Positions 22,120 to 54,939 of a stretch of DNA of 64,000 bases are shown here, piece after piece. Position 1 is the first letter of the stretch; every line of letters begins with the position of its first letter. The position numbers were made by a program, and so were the translations under genes. The notes under the pieces are model-generated. The model did no database searches. It was not told the DNA's origin and was given only the letters and a program-made list of their open reading frames with translations. The DNA is from Chitinophagaceae bacterium (GTDB lineage Bacteria > Bacteroidota > Bacteroidia > Chitinophagales > Chitinophagaceae), in assembly GCA_025923075.1 (NCBI GenBank), contig JAICGN010000001.1, positions 1 through 64,000 of the forward strand, in the 5' to 3' direction.

Positions 22120-22152
22120 GATTTTTTTCAATATGGCAAGCAATCGTTAGAG

Positions 22153-22185
22153 GCCACCCCGGTTATTCGGGGTGGCTGTTTTTTT
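22153..22185 (+). terminator. Rho-independent terminator of the small lipoprotein gene
   Basis: GCCACCCCG (22153-22161) pairs perfectly with CGGGGTGGC (22168-22176) over a GTTATT loop, followed by TGTTTTTTT. Confidence 0.9.
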
Positions 22186-22251
22186 GGTACAAACAGTTGT
22201 TTTCAATTATAGTTTTTTGTGTCAAAATCTTGCTTGTTAAAAATGAATACT

Positions 22252-22259
22252 TATTTTTG
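22252..22259 (+). promoter_or_regulatory. -7 promoter element of the aromatic operon
   Basis: TATTTTTG matches TAnnTTTG, with TTG at 22234-22236 as a possible -33 element. The start of transcription should fall at about 22264, three bases before the leader-peptide ATG. Confidence 0.65.
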
Positions 22260-22266
22260 AAATGAA

Positions 22267-22353
22267 ATGACTATCGCAAAAGCATACCGTTGGTTTTATT
22301 TTTATTACTTCTTTAGCCAGAAGCCGGGATTGCTTTTGTTGAAAACTTATTAA
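22267..22353 (+). CDS. Aromatic-rich attenuator leader peptide
   Basis: A 28-codon ORF starts ATG ACT ATC and ends TAT TAA. Residues 7-16 are YRWFYFYYFF, nine aromatic residues out of ten, including one Trp, four Phe and four Tyr. That density is not expected by chance and matches control-codon runs of attenuator leader peptides. The ORF ends 53 bases before the pheA start. The codon run overlaps and follows RNA segment 1 and precedes segment 2 of the attenuator described at 22277-22406. The peptide itself is probably non-functional; its translation is the sensor. Confidence 0.85.
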   Translation: MTIAKAYRWFYFYYFFSQKPGLLLLKTY

Positions 22354-22406
22354 GTTCAAGAAATTAAATCAACATAGGTCCCGGCAAAAAGCCGGGATTT
22401 TTTTTT
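22277..22406 (+). promoter_or_regulatory. Transcription attenuator of the aromatic amino acid operon
   Basis: Four segments are readable. Segment 1 (22277-22288, CAAAAGCATACC) pairs with segment 2 (22327-22338, GGATTGCTTTTG), with eight continuous pairs plus three. Segment 2 also contains GCCGGGA (22323-22329), which pairs with segment 3 (TCCCGGC, 22379-22385) as antiterminator. Segment 3 alternatively pairs with segment 4 (GCCGGGA, 22391-22397), giving a terminator with an AAAAA loop and nine T residues that run up to the pheA ATG. Segments 2 and 4 share the 11-base direct repeat AAGCCGGGATT. A ribosome stalled at the Tyr/Phe/Trp codons would cover segment 1, allow 2:3 and permit read-through. 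Confidence 0.85.
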
Positions 22407-23231
22407 ATGAGGGTCTCAATACAAGGTTATGAAGGGAGCTTTCACCAGGTGGCAGCGCAGCAGTTTTTTGGAAAAGATGTCCACGTGCTGCCTTGCGCTA
22501 CTTTCCGTGATGTGATAAAGATTGCTTCCAATAAAAAAGAAAGTGATGGTGGCGTGATGGCTATTGAGAATTCAATTGCCGGAAGCATTCTTGCTAACTA
22601 TAATCTTCTTCAAAAATCCAACCTTGTAATTATTGGTGAGATCTATCTCCAGATCAGACAAAATCTTCTTGTGAACCCGGGAGTTAAGTTGGAGGACATT
22701 CGCGAGGTACACTCACATACCATGGCATTACAACAATGCTATGATTTTCTTGATAAGTACAAATGGAAATTGGTAGAGACAGATGATACAGCTTTAAGTG
22801 CTAAGCATGTTCATCAGCATAAGAGCAAACATATTGCTGCAATTGCAAGCAAGCTTGCAGCGGAATTATTTCAATTGGAAGTTTTAGCTCCAAATATCCA
22901 AACATTGAAAAATAATTACACCAGGTTTCTAGTATTGCAAAAACAAGATGTCGCTCAACCGGTGAATGACGCCAATAAAGCCTCGGTGAATTTTCATACT
23001 GATCACTCAAGAGGCAGCCTGGCAAAGGTGCTGACTAAAATTGCCGAGGGCGGTATTAACCTTAGCAAACTCCAAAGCTTTCCGATACCGGGCAGCGATT
23101 TCAAATATAGTTTTCATGCGGATATGGAATTTGACACAGTCGATCAGTTTGATAAAGTGATTGATCAGATAAAACCGCTAACAGCAGAGGTGAAGATATA
23201 TGGTGTGTATCGTCGTGGATTATGGAAATAA
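22407..23231 (+). CDS. pheA: Prephenate dehydratase
   Basis: The enzyme converts prephenate to phenylpyruvate for phenylalanine synthesis. The PDT domain (about 1-180) begins VSIQGYEGSFHQVAA and shows VMAIENSIAGS and the NNYTRFLVL motif with the catalytic Thr. A C-terminal ACT domain (about 195-270, GSLAKVLTKIAEGGINLSKL...) normally binds phenylalanine for feedback inhibition; the ESRP motif is changed to QSFPIPG here. There is no fused chorismate mutase; that domain is on the DAHP synthase of the same operon. The ATG directly follows the terminator T-run of the attenuator, so there is no room for a conventional ribosome-binding site. Confidence 0.95.
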   Translation: MRVSIQGYEGSFHQVAAQQFFGKDVHVLPCATFRDVIKIASNKKESDGGVMAIENSIAGSILANYNLLQKSNLVIIGEIYLQIRQNLLVNPGVKLEDIREVHSHTMALQQCYDFLDKYKWKLVETDDTALSAKHVHQHKSKHIAAIASKLAAELFQLEVLAPNIQTLKNNYTRFLVLQKQDVAQPVNDANKASVNFHTDHSRGSLAKVLTKIAEGGINLSKLQSFPIPGSDFKYSFHADMEFDTVDQFDKVIDQIKPLTAEVKIYGVYRRGLWK

Positions 23232-23372: not shown

Positions 23373-24557
23373 ATGCAACTAGCAAAACGACTTGATGGAA
23401 TTGGCGAGTATTATTTTTCTCAGAAACTGAGGGAGATAGATGAGTTGAACAAACAGGGAAAAAATATTATCAATCTTGGTATTGGCAGTCCGGATATGCC
23501 ACCCCATCCGGATGTGATAAAAACGCTACAGGATGAAAGTGCAAAACCCAACGTGCATGCATATCAATCTTACAAAGGCTCCCCGGTTTTAAGAAAGGCA
23601 ATAAGCGAATGGTATAAGGAATGGTATGGAGTTGAGCTGGATCCTGGCACAGAAATTTTGCCATTGATAGGAAGTAAAGAAGGCATCATGCATATCTGCA
23701 TGACGTATTTAAACAAAGGAGATGAAGCATTGGTACCAAACCCGGGTTATCCAACTTACAGAAGTGCGATCATGCTGGCCGGCGGAAAATGCAAGGAATA
23801 TAAACTGCGAGAGAAAAACAATTATCAACCAGACTTTGATAAGCTGTCCAAAAAAAGCCTGAAAAAAGTGAAACTGATGTTTGTGAATTATCCGCAAATG
23901 CCAACCGGGCAACTCCCATCAAAAGAGTTATTTGAAAGGCTGGTTGTATTTGGTAAGGAGAATGAAATTCTCATTGTTCATGATAACCCTTACAGTTTTA
24001 TTTTGAATGAGAATCCCACGAGTTTGTTGAGCATTGAGAGGGCAAAAGATTGTGTACTCGAATTAAATTCATTAAGCAAGTCGCAGAATATGGCTGGATG
24101 GAGAGTAGGGATGCTTTGCGGAGCAAAAGAAAGAATTGATGAAGTATTGCGATTCAAAAGTAACATGGATAGTGGAATGTTTTTACCGGTTCAATTGGCC
24201 GCTGCAAAGGCATTGACTCTTGGAAAAGAATGGTATGATGAAGTAAATAAGGTATATAAAGTAAGAAGGGAAAAAGTATTTGATTTACTTGATCTGTTAG
24301 AATGTAAGTATTCAAAAGACCAGGCTGGCATGTTTGTCTGGGCAAAAGTCCCTGAAAAATATTTAAAGTATGCAGACACTTCCAAAATCCCCTCCTTGGG
24401 GGGTGGGGGGGCTTTAAGTGATGATGTATTGTATAATTCAAATGTATTTATCACTCCCGGGGGAATATTTGGTGACGCAGGCGAAAAATATGTAAGAGTG
24501 AGCTTATGTGCGCCGGCCGAAAAGTTTGAAGAAGCAATTAGCAGGATTAAGAATTAA
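23373..24557 (+). CDS. Class I/II aminotransferase of the aromatic operon
   Basis: This 394-residue fold-type I PLP aminotransferase carries the Schiff-base Lys in LNSLSKSQNMAGWRVGM and the NPGYPTYRS and DNPYSF motifs. By position between pheA and tyrA it most likely transaminates phenylpyruvate or 4-hydroxyphenylpyruvate, although the sequence also resembles aspartate and LL-diaminopimelate aminotransferases. Near residues 338-345 the protein contains KIPSLGGGG, encoded by a C/G-rich repeat; the flanking YADTS and ALSDDVLYNSNVF would otherwise join directly. The insertion is in frame and lies in the small C-terminal domain. Confidence 0.9.
   Translation: MQLAKRLDGIGEYYFSQKLREIDELNKQGKNIINLGIGSPDMPPHPDVIKTLQDESAKPNVHAYQSYKGSPVLRKAISEWYKEWYGVELDPGTEILPLIGSKEGIMHICMTYLNKGDEALVPNPGYPTYRSAIMLAGGKCKEYKLREKNNYQPDFDKLSKKSLKKVKLMFVNYPQMPTGQLPSKELFERLVVFGKENEILIVHDNPYSFILNENPTSLLSIERAKDCVLELNSLSKSQNMAGWRVGMLCGAKERIDEVLRFKSNMDSGMFLPVQLAAAKALTLGKEWYDEVNKVYKVRREKVFDLLDLLECKYSKDQAGMFVWAKVPEKYLKYADTSKIPSLGGGGALSDDVLYNSNVFITPGGIFGDAGEKYVRVSLCAPAEKFEEAISRIKN
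24383..24417 (+). repeat. C/G-rich repeat in frame inside the aminotransferase gene
   Basis: AAAATCCCCTCCTTGG followed by GGGGTGGGGGGGCTTT is a hairpin-like repeat of a Bacteroidota intergenic type, here within a coding region and adding about nine codons. Confidence 0.65.
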
Positions 24558-24581: not shown

Positions 24582-25430
24582 ATGGAACGAAAACGTATTG
24601 CAATAGTTGGTATCGGGCTGATTGGCGGTTCCTTGGCTCTGCAGTTGAATGAAAAGGGGCTGGCTAGCAAACTCACCGGGGTTGATTCGAACAGGGACCA
24701 TCAAAAAAAAGCATTGGAATTGGGATTAGTAGATGAGATAATGGAATTGGATGATGCTATTGAAAGTTCCGAGGTGATCATTCTTGCTATTCCCGTGGAC
24801 AGCATGGTAAAAATATTGCCGGCAATTCTTGATAAAATAGACAAGCAGATCGTCGTTGATCTTGGATCTACAAAAGAACAATTAATTGCTATCACAAAAG
24901 ATCATCAAAAAAGGGGAAGACTGGTAGCTACTCACCCGATGTGGGGAACGGAGTATAGCGGCCCGCAGGCGGCGGTGCACGGTGCCTTTGAAAATACAGC
25001 CGTAATCATATGCAATCCCAATGAAAGCGATGCTGATGCATTAGAATGGACAAAGAATATGTATAAAAAGATCGGGATGCATTTATTGGAAATGGATGCA
25101 GTATCGCATGATCTGCATGCCGCGTATGTAAGTCATATTTCTCACATCACATCATTTGCCTTGGCGAATACGGTTTTGGAGAAAGAAAAGGAAGATGAAG
25201 CCATTTTTGAACTAGCCTCTGCCGGCTTTGCGAGTACTGTTCGGTTGGCAAAGAGCAATCCTTCTATGTGGGTACCCATTTTTATGCAGAACAGGGAAAA
25301 CGTTTTGGATGTCTTGAATGAACATATTTCGCAATTAAGAAAGTTTAAGAGTTGTTTGGAAAAAGAAAATTATGAGTATTTGCAGGAGCTGATTGAAAAT
25401 GCGAATAAGATCAGGAGGATAATAAAGTAA
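24582..25430 (+). CDS. tyrA: Prephenate dehydrogenase
   Basis: TyrA oxidatively decarboxylates prephenate to 4-hydroxyphenylpyruvate. An N-terminal Rossmann fold is clear (RIAIVGIGLIGGSLALQL, with GxGxxGG and a following VDSN that favours NAD). The catalytic region shows VATHPMWGTEYSGP with His and the later HDLHAAYVSHISHITSFAL. The length of 282 is typical for a monofunctional TyrA without an ACT domain. Upstream is an AATTAAGAATTAATAATTATG-like intergenic repeat; downstream a C-rich repeat begins right after TAA. Confidence 0.94.
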   Translation: MERKRIAIVGIGLIGGSLALQLNEKGLASKLTGVDSNRDHQKKALELGLVDEIMELDDAIESSEVIILAIPVDSMVKILPAILDKIDKQIVVDLGSTKEQLIAITKDHQKRGRLVATHPMWGTEYSGPQAAVHGAFENTAVIICNPNESDADALEWTKNMYKKIGMHLLEMDAVSHDLHAAYVSHISHITSFALANTVLEKEKEDEAIFELASAGFASTVRLAKSNPSMWVPIFMQNRENVLDVLNEHISQLRKFKSCLEKENYEYLQELIENANKIRRIIK

Positions 25431-25693: not shown

Positions 25694-26782
25694 ATGCAAA
25701 CAATCGAACAGGCAAAGAATGAAGCAGGACAAAAAGCATGGACCAAGCGACCGCTGATCATCAGCGGGCCATGCAGCGCCGAAACAGAAGAGCAAGTGGT
25801 ACAGACGGCGCAACGACTTGCGGCTACTGGCAAAGTAGATATGTTGCGTGCCGGCATCTGGAAACCGAGAACAAAACCCGGTATGTTTGAAGGCATAGGT
25901 GTAAAAGGTTTGCCCTGGTTGTTGCAGGCAAAAAAACTGACGGGTATACCGACTACGGTTGAAGTAGCGACTGGCAAACAAGTGCAGGATGCATTGCACT
26001 TTGATGTGGATGTGTTGTGGATCGGGGCGAGAACAACTGTGAATCCTTTCAGTGTGCAGGAAGTGGCCGATGCGTTGCGTGGAGTGGATGTGCCGGTGCT
26101 AATAAAGAACCCGATCAATCCTGATCTTGAATTGTGGAGCGGCGCCGTGGAAAGGGTTGCCCGTTCGGGAATTAAACAGATCGGTCTTATTCATCGCGGG
26201 TTTTCTTCTTATGGGAATACCGAATATCGTAATGCGCCGATGTGGCACCTGGCCATCGAGATGAAGCGTCGTAATCCTGAGTTGTTACTCATCAATGATC
26301 CTTCACATATTTGTGGCCGTCGTGATATACTGATGGATGTGGCGCAAAAAGCAATTGATCTTGACTTTGATGGACTAATGATCGAAAGCCATATCGATCC
26401 TGATAATGCATGGAGTGATGCAAAGCAACAAGTGACGCCTGAGAAACTTGCCGAGATGCTTGGGGAGATCAAATGGCGTCATGAATCAGCGGAAGAAATT
26501 GAATTCATCACCGCGTTGGAAAAATTGCGCGAGCAAATCAATCATCTGGATGATGAATTGATACAGTTGCTTGGCCAGCGAATGAAGATTGCGGATAAGA
26601 TCGGTGAATACAAGAAGAATAATAACGTTACGATTTTGCAAACGAGTCGCTGGAACCAGATACTGGAAAGAGCATTTGCAAAAGGTGACGCACTTGGATT
26701 AAGCCGTGAGTTTATCACCAAGTATTTTGATGCGGTGCACATGGAAAGTATCAATCATCAGAATAAGATCATGAATAGTTAA
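25694..26782 (+). CDS. Bifunctional DAHP synthase / chorismate mutase
   Basis: The N-terminal part (about 1-260) is a type I-beta 3-deoxy-7-phosphoheptulonate synthase, the entry step of the shikimate pathway: PLIISGPCSAETEEQ, LRAGIWKPRTKPGMFEG, IGARTTVNPFSVQE, GLIHRGFSSYG and INDPSHICGRRD. The C-terminal 95 residues (LEKLREQINHLDDELIQLLGQRMKIADKIGEYKK...) form an AroQ-type chorismate mutase. The fusion is common in Bacteroidota and allows the mutase domain to confer feedback control by prephenate or aromatic amino acids. It lies fourth in the operon and has its own promoter-like element. Confidence 0.95.
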   Translation: MQTIEQAKNEAGQKAWTKRPLIISGPCSAETEEQVVQTAQRLAATGKVDMLRAGIWKPRTKPGMFEGIGVKGLPWLLQAKKLTGIPTTVEVATGKQVQDALHFDVDVLWIGARTTVNPFSVQEVADALRGVDVPVLIKNPINPDLELWSGAVERVARSGIKQIGLIHRGFSSYGNTEYRNAPMWHLAIEMKRRNPELLLINDPSHICGRRDILMDVAQKAIDLDFDGLMIESHIDPDNAWSDAKQQVTPEKLAEMLGEIKWRHESAEEIEFITALEKLREQINHLDDELIQLLGQRMKIADKIGEYKKNNNVTILQTSRWNQILERAFAKGDALGLSREFITKYFDAVHMESINHQNKIMNS

Positions 26783-26982: not shown

Positions 26983-28002
26983 ATGAAGAAACTGACATAT
27001 AAATTTTCTAACAGTTCTGTTGACTATTACTTCGCAGGAGGCATTTCTCATTTAAAAGAGATTGTCGATAAGAACAATGCAATCATCATAACAGATGAAA
27101 ATGTTTACAATGCCCATGTAAAAAGATTTAAGAACTGGAATTGCATCGTAATAAAACCAGGGGAAGAATTTAAGGTGCAATCAACTGTCGATGACCTGAT
27201 CAACCAACTGATAGAAATGGAAGCCGACCGGAAAACAATTTTAGTCGGCGTTGGGGGAGGCGTCATTACAGATCTTACCGGTTACGTTGCATCGGTTTAT
27301 ATGCGGGGAATAAGTTTTGGATTTATTCCAACCTCGTTGCTTGCCATGGTTGATGCGTCTATTGGTGGTAAGAATGGAATTGATGTTGGAGTTTACAAAA
27401 ACATGGTTGGCGTTATCCGTCAACCCAGGTTTATTCTGCATGATATGGTTTTCCTGAATTCGTTGCCTGAAAATGAGTGGAACAATGGGTTTGCAGAAAT
27501 GGTTAAGCATGCTGCTATAAAAGATGCAACCATGTTCAAAGAATTAGAATCAGGCACATTAAAAAAATATCAAAGGAGTCAAACCGCAATTTGCGAGTTG
27601 GTAAGGCGCAATGCAATCATAAAAACCAAAGTTGTGCAGAATGATGAATTTGAAAAAGGCGAGAGAAGATTGTTGAATTTTGGTCATACACTCGGGCATG
27701 CTTTAGAAAATCAGTATGAATTATCACATGGCCAGGCAATTTCAATAGGCATGACCTATGCTTCAGTGATCTCACAAAGGATATTAGGGTTTAAAGAACC
27801 TGGCAGGGTCGCAACTCTCTTGTTGAAATATGGGCTGCCAACATTTGCCGACTTTGATAAGGGAAAAGTATTTGAAGTGCTGAAAATGGATAAGAAGCGG
27901 GAAAGAAAAGAAATGAATTATGTGATGCTGGAGAAAATAGGGAAAGGAGTTGTAAAGTCTATTCAACTTGATGAACTGGAACAAATAATTAAAAATCTTT
28001 AA
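26983..28002 (+). CDS. aroB: 3-dehydroquinate synthase
   Basis: AroB cyclises DAHP to 3-dehydroquinate using NAD and Zn2+. Present are GVGGGVITDLTGYVASVYMRGI (NAD-binding), PTSLLAMVDASIGGKNGID with catalytic Lys, and the metal-ligand region NEWNNGFAEMVKHAAIKD plus NFGHTLGHALE and LSHGQAISIGM. The 339 residues are slightly shorter than the usual 350-360 but all motifs are intact. The ATG lies 2 bases after a C-rich repeat; no Shine-Dalgarno sequence is seen. Confidence 0.96.
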   Translation: MKKLTYKFSNSSVDYYFAGGISHLKEIVDKNNAIIITDENVYNAHVKRFKNWNCIVIKPGEEFKVQSTVDDLINQLIEMEADRKTILVGVGGGVITDLTGYVASVYMRGISFGFIPTSLLAMVDASIGGKNGIDVGVYKNMVGVIRQPRFILHDMVFLNSLPENEWNNGFAEMVKHAAIKDATMFKELESGTLKKYQRSQTAICELVRRNAIIKTKVVQNDEFEKGERRLLNFGHTLGHALENQYELSHGQAISIGMTYASVISQRILGFKEPGRVATLLLKYGLPTFADFDKGKVFEVLKMDKKRERKEMNYVMLEKIGKGVVKSIQLDELEQIIKNL

Positions 28003-28026: not shown

Positions 28027-29322
28027 ATGAAAGTGACAATACATCCGTCGGAATTAAAAGGCATTATTCAGGCGCCGGCTTCCAAGAGTTCCATGCAAAG
28101 AGCTTGTGCAGCGGCATTATTATCAAAAGGAACGAGCACTATTAATAATCCGGGGCATAGCAATGATGATAAAGCGGCTTTGGATATAATCCAAAAACTT
28201 GGAGCTATCATTGAAGTTGATAGTTCAGAATTAAGAGTTCAGAGTCAGGGAATCAATCCGATTTCAAATGAGATTGATTGCGGGGAAAGTGGACTAAGCA
28301 TTCGAATGTTCACTCCAATCGTTGCTTTAAGCGATAAAGAAATTACAATTAATGGCTCAGGTAGTTTGACCACAAGACCCATGGATTTCTTTGATGAGAT
28401 ACTACCAAAACTTGGAGTGAAAATAAAAAGCAATGAGGGCAAACTGCCAATGGTCGTGCAGGGTCCTTTAGTTCCGGCAACTATTGAAGTTGATGGCTCA
28501 TTAAGTTCTCAATTTCTTACGGGGTTATTAATGGCATATTCGGCCGCTGGCGCAAAAAATGTTTCGATCAGGGTTAATGATCTTAAAAGCAAACCTTACA
28601 TCGATCTTACATTGGATGTGATGAAGCAATTCGGAATGAATGTGCCGGAGAATAAGAATTATGAAGAATTTATCTTTCACGGTATACCGACTCTGCACGC
28701 TGAGCTCGTGACTCGTAAGTACACCGTGGAAGGCGATTGGAGCGGTGGAGCTTTCCTTCTTGTGGCTGGCGCAATTGCCGGTCCGCTAACAGTCAGAGGT
28801 CTTGATCTTTCTTCAACACAGGCTGATAAGGCAATAGTAGATGCGCTGATGGATGCGAACGCTTCCATCGCCATGGAAGCAAAAGGTATTAAAATTCATC
28901 CGGGTGGGTTAAAAGGGTTTCAATTTGATGCAAATGATTGTCCTGACCTTTTTCCCCCGCTTGTAGCATTGGCTGCTTATTGTAAAGGAAGAACAACGAT
29001 CAAAGGAGTAAATAGATTGCTGCATAAAGAAAGCAATCGTGCCCTGACACTCCAGGACGAATTCGATAAGATGGGAGTCCTGGTCAAACTGGAACGAGAC
29101 GAAATGCTTATCCAGGGGAATGGTTTCGTTAAAGGAGCAGATGTTCATTCACATCATGATCATCGGATTGCCATGGCCTGTGCGGTGGCCGGCTTAAAGG
29201 CAAATAGTGAAATGGTAATTGAAGAAGCAATGGCTGTAAAAAAATCTTATCCTGATTTTTATAATGATCTTAAATCATTGGGTGCATCAGTATCTTTACC
29301 CTTTCAACATTTAAATTTATAA
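28027..29322 (+). CDS. aroA: 3-phosphoshikimate 1-carboxyvinyltransferase (EPSP synthase)
   Basis: AroA makes EPSP from shikimate-3-phosphate and PEP. The N-terminal PASKSSMQRACAAALLSKGTS holds the substrate Lys-Ser; DCGESGLSIRMFTPI is the PEP-loop region, here with Ser where GNAGT is usual in class I enzymes. Further motifs are DGSLSSQFLTGLLMA, DCPDLFPPLVALA and HDHRIAMACAVAGLK with KKSYPDFY near the end. A short repeat-like insert (GTTCAGAATTAAGAGTTCAG, about 28223-28250) adds residues in a surface strand connection. The 431 residues are typical. Confidence 0.95.
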   Translation: MKVTIHPSELKGIIQAPASKSSMQRACAAALLSKGTSTINNPGHSNDDKAALDIIQKLGAIIEVDSSELRVQSQGINPISNEIDCGESGLSIRMFTPIVALSDKEITINGSGSLTTRPMDFFDEILPKLGVKIKSNEGKLPMVVQGPLVPATIEVDGSLSSQFLTGLLMAYSAAGAKNVSIRVNDLKSKPYIDLTLDVMKQFGMNVPENKNYEEFIFHGIPTLHAELVTRKYTVEGDWSGGAFLLVAGAIAGPLTVRGLDLSSTQADKAIVDALMDANASIAMEAKGIKIHPGGLKGFQFDANDCPDLFPPLVALAAYCKGRTTIKGVNRLLHKESNRALTLQDEFDKMGVLVKLERDEMLIQGNGFVKGADVHSHHDHRIAMACAVAGLKANSEMVIEEAMAVKKSYPDFYNDLKSLGASVSLPFQHLNL

Positions 29323-29323
29323 A

Positions 29324-30319
29324 GTGAATTCATTCGGCCGCCTATTTCGTGTTTCCATTTTTGGTGAATCGCATGGCGAATGTGTAGGAATAACTATCGA
29401 CGGTTGTCCGGCAGGATTATCATTATCACCCGAAGACCTGGCTGCCGATCTTGAAAGAAGAAAAGGCGGTAAACAAAAAGGAACTACACCCAGGCAGGAA
29501 GAAGATTTTCCAATTTTCAAAAGCGGAATATTTAATGGAAAGACAACGGGCTTCCCTATTACAATACTTTTTGAAAATAAAAATATCCGCAGCGAAGACT
29601 ATACAAAACAGAGAAGTATTCCACGTCCCGGTCATGCAGATTGGGTGGCACATCAAAAGTTTGGCGGCTATGAAGATTATCGCGGTGGCGGACATTTTAG
29701 TGCAAGATTGACCGCAGGAATCGTTGCCGCAGCAGCCATTGCTAAAAAGCTAATGAAGGATGTCAGCATTCATGCAGAGGTCGTCGAGATCGGCGGTGAA
29801 AAAGATCTTGAAAAAGGATTGCAAAATGCCATTGATGCAAAAGATTCAGTTGGCGGAATTGTTGAATGCCGTGTAAATGGGTTACCCGTTGGTTTAGGCG
29901 AACCATGGTTTGATTCAGTGGAATCGGTTTTGGCTCATCTTGTTTTTGCAATCCCGGCAGTAAGAGGTGTTGAGTTTGGAACTGGTTTTGCAGCGGCAAG
30001 GATGTTTGGCAGCGAACACAATGATGCTATTGTGGAAATGAGTGGTAAAACAAAAACAAACCATGCGGGTGGTGTAGTGGGAGGAATTACTAATGGAAAT
30101 GAATTGGTATTTCGGTTAGCAATAAAACCAACTTCATCTACTCCTAAAGAGCAGGAAAGTTTGAACTGGGATACAGAACAAGTAGAAAAATTTTCGATCA
30201 AGGGGCGTCATGATCTTTGCGTGGCATTAAGGGCGCCGGTGATTGTTGAGGCGGTAGCTGCATTGGTGCTTGTTGATTTTATGATGCTGGAGCAGAAAAT
30301 TCCCACCGTGCTTTCCTAA
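29324..30319 (+). CDS. aroC: Chorismate synthase
   Basis: AroC eliminates phosphate from EPSP to give chorismate, using reduced FMN. The conserved start NSFGRLFRVSIFGESHGECVG is complete, so the GTG at 29324 is taken as the start; it lies one base after the aroA stop. Other motifs are RPGHADWVAHQKFGGYEDYRGGGHFSARLTAG and GRHDLCVALRAPVIVEA. The 331-residue length is somewhat shorter than the common 350-360. This is the last gene of the operon; its stop codon overlaps the 3' end of the convergent hydrolase gene by four bases. Confidence 0.96.
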   Translation: MNSFGRLFRVSIFGESHGECVGITIDGCPAGLSLSPEDLAADLERRKGGKQKGTTPRQEEDFPIFKSGIFNGKTTGFPITILFENKNIRSEDYTKQRSIPRPGHADWVAHQKFGGYEDYRGGGHFSARLTAGIVAAAAIAKKLMKDVSIHAEVVEIGGEKDLEKGLQNAIDAKDSVGGIVECRVNGLPVGLGEPWFDSVESVLAHLVFAIPAVRGVEFGTGFAAARMFGSEHNDAIVEMSGKTKTNHAGGVVGGITNGNELVFRLAIKPTSSTPKEQESLNWDTEQVEKFSIKGRHDLCVALRAPVIVEAVAALVLVDFMMLEQKIPTVLS

Positions 30320-54815: not shown

Positions 54816-54832
54816 TTAGGGGTAAAAAAAAT

Positions 54833-54927
54833 GGCAGGCTCCTCACATCGCACCGCTACAACCACTTATCCTTGCTGCCTTCCGGCCCTGGGGAGGTTCA
54901 GCAGGAGCTGGTCGTGTAAGACCTGCC
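54833..54927 (-). ncRNA. ffs: Signal recognition particle RNA (small bacterial type)
   Basis: On the minus strand the 95-nt RNA begins GGCAGG and ends CCTGCC, closing the stem. Its apical part contains the conserved SRP helix 8 sequence: GCTGAACCTCCCCAGG, then GCCGGAAGGCAGCAAGG with the GGAA tetraloop and the asymmetric loop bases bound by Ffh. It is about the size of E. coli 4.5S RNA and lacks the Alu domain of Bacillus-type RNAs. A TATCTTTG promoter element sits exactly 5 nt upstream of the predicted 5' end. Confidence 0.95.
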
Positions 54928-54931
54928 GCCG

Positions 54932-54939
54932 CAAAGATA
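54932..54939 (-). promoter_or_regulatory. -7 promoter element of the SRP RNA
   Basis: The minus strand reads TATCTTTG followed by C. The RNA 5' end, fixed by the GGCAGG/CCTGCC closing stem, falls 5 nt after the G. This gives a reference for reading the other promoters in the window. Confidence 0.75.

Follow-up and report, generated by a model that had tools for sequence, protein, structure and literature searches.

In this work, we analyzed a window of 64,000 nt of genomic DNA from a Chitinophagaceae bacterium (GCA_025923075.1, contig JAICGN010000001.1, positions 1-64,000 of the forward strand; the source genome comprises 4.98 Mb in 274 contigs) and the leader region that precedes its pheA gene. 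We hold with high confidence that this leader acts as a ribosome-mediated transcription attenuator sensing charged tRNA-Phe and tRNA-Tyr, and that, very probably, the Phe/Tyr-rich leader turns the aromatic amino acid genes on only under Phe/Tyr shortage. The parts of the attenuator, their conservation, the compensating changes in their helices and their geometry were all observed directly. An attenuator ahead of the aromatic operon had been originally predicted, and conservation of the leader ORF, the compensating changes and the content of the operon lend support to that prediction.

The leader region and the operon that it precedes

Re-reading and folding the sequence recovered every element of the original prediction exactly where it had been placed (Table 1), and the leader elements ahead of pheA are real and far beyond chance. 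A TTG located 19 nt upstream of the -7 box adds to the elements previously recognized, and the box itself agrees with the consensus TAHHTTTG; this consensus and its spacing to the start site were taken from Flavobacterium johnsoniae (PMC6847099). Codons 7-16 of the leader ORF read YRWFYFYYFF, that is, nine F/Y/W, and among the ATG ORFs of 8-50 codons on both strands of the 64-kb window it is the sole one with at least eight F/Y/W in ten codons. The 11-base direct repeat that had been noticed, AAGCCGGGATT, is present at 22321-22331 and again at 22389-22399, and a second antiterminator block, beyond the one predicted, is formed by the pairing of TGTTGA in segment 2 with TCAACA in segment 3. An intrinsic terminator sits between the leader ORF and the first gene, pheA; its stem starts at about 22377, its T-run ends at 22406, touching the pheA ATG at 22407, and its hairpin folds with -16.4 kcal/mol. 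The leader RNA was more stable than its dinucleotide shuffles (z -2.55; 3 of 200 shuffles as good).

According to Pfam, seven genes on the same strand follow the leader in the order pheA-aminotransferase-tyrA-DAHPS/CM-aroB-aroA-aroC, and the next ORF of at least 100 aa after aroC is on the opposite strand. The products of this operon, Phe and Tyr, match the codons enriched in the leader ORF.

Table 1. Features of the window, with positions counted from its first nucleotide.
Feature	Position	Strand	Description
Bacteroidota-type promoter	22230-22259	+	TTG at 22230-22232, 19 nt, -7 box TATTTTTG at 22252-22259
Predicted transcript start and 5'UTR	22264-22266	+	Start at 22264 or 22265 plus 2-3 nt of 5'UTR, from the spacing rule of the -7 box
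Leader ORF, 28 codons	22267-22353	+	MTIAKAYRWFYFYYFFSQKPGLLLLKTY; control codons 7-16 at 22285-22314
Segment 1, CAAAAGCA	22277-22284	+	Codons 4-6; complementary to TGCTTTTG at 22331-22338
Segment 2	22321-22343	+	Within the leader ORF; core GCCGGGA at 22323-22329 plus TGTTGA at 22337-22342; complement of segment 3
Segment 3	22369-22385	+	TCAACA at 22369-22374 plus GGTCCCGGC at 22377-22385; partner is segment 2 (antiterminator) or segment 4 (terminator)
Segment 4, GCCGGGATT, and T-run	22389-22406	+	Copy of the segment 2 core; intrinsic terminator with segment 3
pheA, prephenate dehydratase	22407-23231	+	PF00800, E 3.4e-58
Class I/II aminotransferase	23373-24557	+	PF00155
tyrA, prephenate dehydrogenase	24582-25430	+	PF02153, PF20463
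DAHP synthase fused to chorismate mutase	25694-26782	+	PF00793, PF01817
aroB, 3-dehydroquinate synthase	26983-28002	+	PF01761, PF24621
aroA, EPSP synthase	28027-29322	+	PF00275
aroC, chorismate synthase	29324-30319	+	PF01264
Small SRP RNA, Bacteroidales-type	54828-54935	-	RF04183, 90 bits

Conservation of the leader ORF

Loci for comparison were selected by the PheA protein alone in three sets: relatives (PheA match in 35 of 59 genomes, 30 loci taken), named genomes (the best 80 of at least 579 PheA matches) and the phylum (PheA match in 337 of 392, 30 loci taken, 25 of them new). From the total of 135 loci, one without upstream sequence (L099) and five exact duplicates were removed, leaving 129 upstream regions. 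An ATG ORF with at least seven F/Y/W in ten codons was found within 450 nt upstream of pheA in 124 of these 129 regions, and in 1 of 747 control upstreams, which were those of other ORFs of at least 150 aa in the named loci (six-frame ORFs, some of them not genes). Among the five exceptions, two (L036 and L119) show by eye an aromatic leader that starts with GTG, not ATG, and is followed by a terminator, and a third (L132) has a weaker Tyr-containing leader with a terminator present, also by eye; in L029 and L078 (2 of the 129 regions) no leader was visible upstream of pheA. As the compared leaders are related by descent, these counts are not counts of independent cases, and the shuffle counts given below are not to be read as probabilities.

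A terminator was detected by script for 119 of 130 leaders (the 119 lie in 115 loci), and none was found by the script's rule for the other 11. The aromatic runs of these 119 leaders contain 589 F, 414 Y and 22 W codons, Tyr accounting for about two fifths of the F/Y/W codons. Judged by codon composition, the conserved signal is Phe plus Tyr, with Trp minor. Of the joint Phe/Tyr/Trp input originally proposed, the dominance of Phe and Tyr codons upholds the first two, whereas Trp as a general input was not borne out, W being present in or before the run in 22 of the 119 leaders.

We also inspected 36 regions from a wider range, taking between one and three from each family. Thirteen leaders were accepted (L136-L142, L145-L147 and L158-L160), three were doubtful (L144, L150 and L167), and in 20 regions the script found no leader; where genes are long or fused, however, the sequence examined may not reach the start of the operon. 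The presence of the leader throughout the phylum is unsupported by these numbers. In L158, L159, L160, L120, L121 and L124, leaders precede pheA in families outside the window's class. The PheA proteins of these loci match the window's group with E values of 1e-96 to 1e-122, compared with approximately 1e-24 to 1e-80 for most others outside the class, and these closer scores suggest that gene and leader may travel together.

Antiterminator and terminator helices

To assess the 2:3 helix, we searched the stretch from the aromatic run to the terminator for complementarity to segment 3, the terminator's 5' arm, using 200 dinucleotide shuffles for each leader. Complementarity reached p ≤ 0.05 in 97 of the 119 leaders and p ≤ 0.01 in 45 of them. 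The segment cores are mostly of the GCCGGG type, and distant leaders with several compensating changes (L025, L027, L028, L112, L127, L129 and L131) retain the logic of segments 2, 3 and 4. The altered sets, written 2/3/4, include CTGAGG/CCTCAG/CTGAAG in L027, CGAGAC/GTCTCG/CGAGAC in L028, CGAGGCTTT/AAAGCCTCG/CGAGGCTTT in L131 and CCGGAG/CTCCGG/CCGGGG in L112; in such sets segments 2 and 4 stay nearly alike, both complementary to segment 3.

Two alignments were built, A2 with 28 leaders of the KPG/RPG+LLL group and A3 with 25 leaders of the SSRVVF group (5 of the 30 listed members were left out, three cut or atypical and two near-copies). In A2, the 2:3 helix was paired in 94.2% of cells, against 29-48% when the partner was shifted, and four of its pairs comprised 10 cells changed on both sides, a figure that 0 of 500 shuffles reached; further pair types did not exceed the shuffles (483 of 500 as high). 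The 3:4 helix of the same alignment had four pairs with 16 cells changed on both sides (1 and 0 of 500 shuffles as high). In A3, the 2:3 helix was paired in 95.2% of cells with little variation, and its covariation score was not above the shuffles (79 of 500 as high). The reading frame of segment 2 differs between the groups, KPG/RPG+LLL in one and SSRVVF in the other, and it is thus the RNA, not the peptide, that is kept. On this comparative evidence, the antiterminator 2:3 excludes the terminator 3:4 and both are kept by compensating changes, which are weak in A3. Conservation in relatives, by which the original prediction was to be judged, was found for the aromatic codons and for the 2:3 and 3:4 pairs alike.

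Complementarity between segments 1 and 2 had p ≤ 0.05 in 43 of the 119 leaders, with 6 expected; for the window leader alone p was 0.08, which is not significant. The pairs are of the CAAAAGCA:TGCTTTTG type in one group and of the GCAAATACA:TGTATTTGC type in the other. The 1:2 covariation was not significant in the KPG/RPG+LLL group (class I), where 83 of 500 shuffles reached the both-sides count, and the SSRVVF group gave modest signals, with 31 of 500 shuffles reaching the covariation score. For the 1:2 hairpin proposed originally, the complement is present and carries a signal across the family, but it is statistically weaker than 2:3, and this helix appears to be a conserved but least certain part of the attenuator.

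In four loci (L026, L030, L122 and L123), a single pheA is preceded by a tandem pair of aromatic leader ORFs, both with a terminator of their own, and these are possibly two attenuators in series; the 2:3 test gave p > 0.05 in four of the eight leaders (the second of L030, the second of L122 and both of L123).

Geometry and modelled ribosome positions

In 114 of the 119 leaders, 7-16 nt lie between the end of the aromatic run and segment 2, with a mode of 10, a distribution given without a separate spacing control. We folded the RNA as it would be when segment 3 has just been made, hiding 30 nt under the ribosome, a mask that is a simplification. In the window leader, the 2:3 core formed at the tested ribosome positions 4-15, was lost at codons 16-26 and came back at codon 27. 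Across the 97 leaders with significant 2:3, the mean P(2:3) was 0.96 for a ribosome on the run and 0.00 for one at +3 to +8 codons; at the stop codon it was 0.72, and with no ribosome 0.93. All 97 tested leaders had 2:3 free to form with the ribosome on the run and abolished 3-8 codons beyond it, a result that partly reflects construction because the 22 leaders with 2:3 p > 0.05 were omitted and the search for segment 2 was confined by definition to the region downstream of the run.

In the finished window leader RNA, the terminator won at every ribosome position on folding; the choice between 2:3 and 3:4 must therefore be kinetic, resting on timing. Stalling over segment 1 had been thought to favor 2:3, a point that the segment positions and the mask folding correct, as coverage of segment 1 by the stalled ribosome is not required. 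With segment 2 lying within the leader ORF, a ribosome that has moved beyond the aromatic run blocks segment 2 directly. In the model 2:3 is free to form without a ribosome, so that read-through of an untranslated leader would be expected unless 1:2 stands in its way kinetically. The opposite is established for the untranslated leader of E. coli trp.

Predicted start of the message

Many start sites of F. johnsoniae are found 4-5 nt past a TAHHTTTG, the -33 motif is much less evident, and 87% of the transcripts with a probable promoter have leaders longer than 10 nt (PMC6847099); the same work describes the messages of the phylum as lacking Shine-Dalgarno sequences and mostly having leaders. 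In Bacteroides thetaiotaomicron about 3.7% of the 5'UTRs are shorter than 10 nt (PMC7366714). The -7 box of the window ends 7 nt before the leader ATG, hence the predicted 5'UTR of 2-3 nt; the message would thus open almost directly with the leader ORF, which is predicted to be leaderless. Of 108 family leaders, 80 have an exact box at a distance of 3-9 nt from the ATG, compared with 27 of 982 control ORF starts; among starts with an exact box within 60 nt, the figures are 80 of 91 and 27 of 123. These family leaders come from the G genomes of the same family and from named loci, whose family was assumed from 65-84% PheA identity and some of whose titles differ. Outside the family a leaderless design was not seen: 0 of 20 leaders had an exact -7 box at 3-9 nt, and the five exact boxes present in them lie 18-34 nt away. 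The leaderless layout, as predicted from promoter spacing, looks like a family trait.

Leaders of other amino acid operons

In the genome of the window, MINRTHNHHHFLPDQGRP is encoded upstream of hisG (L172, at 1142) and MKQVNQYWWWHTNSVGVL upstream of trpE (L173, at 1264), with a terminator after each; by eye, the 3' arm of this terminator is similar to a segment at the end of the respective ORF. Within the window's family (L181-L239 included), a His-run ORF was present in 29 of 31 his loci, which were the best 30 of 49 matching genomes plus the window's own, and a Trp-run ORF in 28 of 30 trp loci, the best 30 of 48 matching genomes with its own among them, 60 genomes being searched in both cases; the reverse-strand controls gave 1 and 2, respectively. 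An exact box lies at 3-9 nt from 12 of 29 his ORFs and from 6 of 32 trp ORFs, four of these 32 being chance ORFs on reading, and the predicted leaderless layout is less clear for the his and trp leaders. Upstream of the two leuA-like genes examined there was no leu leader. In L178 (around G000:C54:18588-18640), a thrA-like homoserine dehydrogenase gene is preceded, at a distance of about 95 nt, by a frame ending in SISTTTTTTIR and a short hairpin; this frame, without a clear ATG start or T-run, is a possible Thr leader.

Discussion

From these observations we infer how the leader would be started and translated, how its events would be timed and how the operon would respond to starvation. Transcription is predicted to start 2-3 nt before the leader AUG, and a ribosome would load once the 5' end emerges. 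When Phe-tRNA or Tyr-tRNA is scarce, the ribosome would stall somewhere in codons 7-15, leaving segment 2 (codons 19-26) exposed to pair with segment 3 as soon as the latter is made; with 2:3 formed, the terminator could not form and RNA polymerase would read into pheA-aroC. When both charged tRNAs are plentiful, the ribosome would be at codons 16-26 by the time segment 3 emerges and would mask segment 2, in which case 3:4 would pair and transcription would stop before pheA. Segment 1 would pair with part of segment 2, perhaps as a guard against read-through of an untranslated leader.

Ribosome-mediated attenuation is a classical mechanism. Like the window leader, the E. coli pheA, trp and his attenuators combine a short ORF bearing control codons with antiterminator and terminator helices that exclude each other and with an operon for the sensed amino acid, whereas the window leader is predicted to be leaderless and mixes Phe and Tyr codons. 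A further difference from the E. coli layout is the position of segment 1 ahead of the control codons and of segment 2 within the ORF. In Rfam searches, the window leader scored 29.2 bits with Phe_leader (RF01859; E 0.0032, 231-base search), below the gathering score of 55, and 22.5 bits with Trp_leader (RF00513), below the gathering score of 41, and no T-box model appeared among its 29 matches up to E 10. With these scores under gathering, and with none at gathering in 20 further loci, assignment to a known Rfam leader family was discarded. The Bacteroid-trp motif (RF01692) is linked to trp genes. This motif, listed as a candidate cis-regulatory RNA of Bacteroidetes (PMC2864571, Table 1), was absent from the matches of the window leader (E up to 10) and from those of the genome's trp leader (E up to 1).

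Several rival explanations of the locus must be weighed. TTT/TAT-rich sequence easily encodes F and Y, and terminators are common between genes, so a constitutive terminator next to a chance AT-rich ORF, without any regulation, was considered; this is very improbable in view of the excess of aromatic ORFs upstream of pheA (124 of 129 regions versus 1 of 747 controls, on which the chance ORF was rejected), the narrow spacing between run and segment 2 and the compensating changes in 2:3 and 3:4. We give equally little credence to a different signal, be it a T-box-like tRNA-binding RNA, a riboswitch or a protein-bound attenuator, with the ORF being incidental: the leader is indeed structured and has a terminator at its end, but it matches no Rfam family at gathering score, T-box included, and the codons and the 2/3/4 logic stay constant between distant genomes whereas the helix sequences change.

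An action in trans of the attenuated transcript or of the leader peptide, with attenuation being secondary, has a precedent in rnTrpL/peTrpL of Sinorhizobium meliloti (PMC7298713), and the roughly 140-nt product of termination could itself be a small RNA. The peptide tails, however, differ between groups and are read in different frames, which fits poorly with a conserved peptide function, and we regard this explanation as improbable too, if slightly less so than the former two. Less improbable, yet still unlikely, is an attenuator that senses mainly Phe or mainly Tyr, the other codon being incidental, which is a variant of the main reading and not exclusive of it. The excess of F over Y codons speaks in its favor, while the share of Tyr in the runs and the presence of tyrA in the operon speak for joint sensing of charged tRNA-Phe and tRNA-Tyr.

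Within the Bacteroidota, structured 5' transcripts have been described before pheA and hisG in Flavobacterium psychrophilum, and in other Flavobacteriaceae genera as well, together with strong clues for leader-peptide attenuation before amino acid operons; in the available part of that report no mechanism is stated for pheA itself (PMC9723704). The type found in the window differs from that element in its occurrence in Chitinophagaceae and more widely, and in its segments, compensating changes and predicted leaderless start. Small ORFs reminiscent of leader peptides have also been noted in Bacteroidota (PMC7366714). Leaderless attenuator peptides in Streptomyces (PMC8079986) and the leaderless leader peptide of S. 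meliloti trpL (PMC7298713) share with the window a leader ORF at or near the 5' end of the transcript, as predicted for the latter, and the aroF leader of Corynebacterium glutamicum contains Phe-Tyr-Phe (PMC4046766); these systems belong to other phyla than the window and are likened to it by description. As far as the available part of a 2010 survey goes, before its own Firmicutes case no leader-peptide system had been shown outside Proteobacteria and Actinobacteria (PMC2965389). Among the matches listed in our literature searches, which left most subscription journals uncovered, there was no leaderless or Phe/Tyr attenuator in Chitinophagaceae. A comparative study of attenuation by Lopatovskaya from 2010 reportedly may predict attenuators in Bacteroidetes, and for this reason we claim no priority for them. 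The window leader is an unusually well supported member of an already known mechanism, with a leaderless layout for which no report was found in the phylum.

Looking beyond the window, we see about even chances that leader-peptide attenuation is general for amino acid operons (Phe/Tyr, His, Trp and perhaps Thr) in this class of Bacteroidota, and that Chitinophagaceae have remodelled it on a leaderless leader ORF that supplies the antiterminator arm with its own 3' half; the untranslated leader would then be ON by default and a ribosome passing the control codons would switch the operon off. If so, transcription and translation would be tightly coupled in the phylum. Already in its main reading, the attenuator takes a textbook control mechanism, backed by comparison, across a large bacterial group with hardly any documented cases, and the leader could serve in Bacteroidota as a natural reporter of the coupling between RNA polymerase and ribosome and of how leaderless messages are translated.

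A conserved element upstream of the promoter

A near-invariant stretch, TGGCAAGCAATCGTTAGAGGCC, has its core at 22134-22155 of the window and a hairpin extending to about 22187. As a rule TTTTCATA stands before it. Directly after it comes a terminator hairpin, the sequence of which varies while its pairing, judged by eye, is kept. The stretch also occurs in L003, L014, L019, L031, L036, L041, L083, L119, L240 and L243-L249 and, allowing at most one mismatch, in 38 of 60 family genomes with one to eight copies each, a reversed control pattern giving 0. The element had no Rfam match at gathering (the best sub-threshold score was 22 bits), and its letters had no match in the literature searched. 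In 7 of 23 copies, a small Thr-rich, lipoprotein-like ORF lies just upstream (230 nt inspected), and the element looks like a 3'-end-derived small RNA family or a 3'UTR element.
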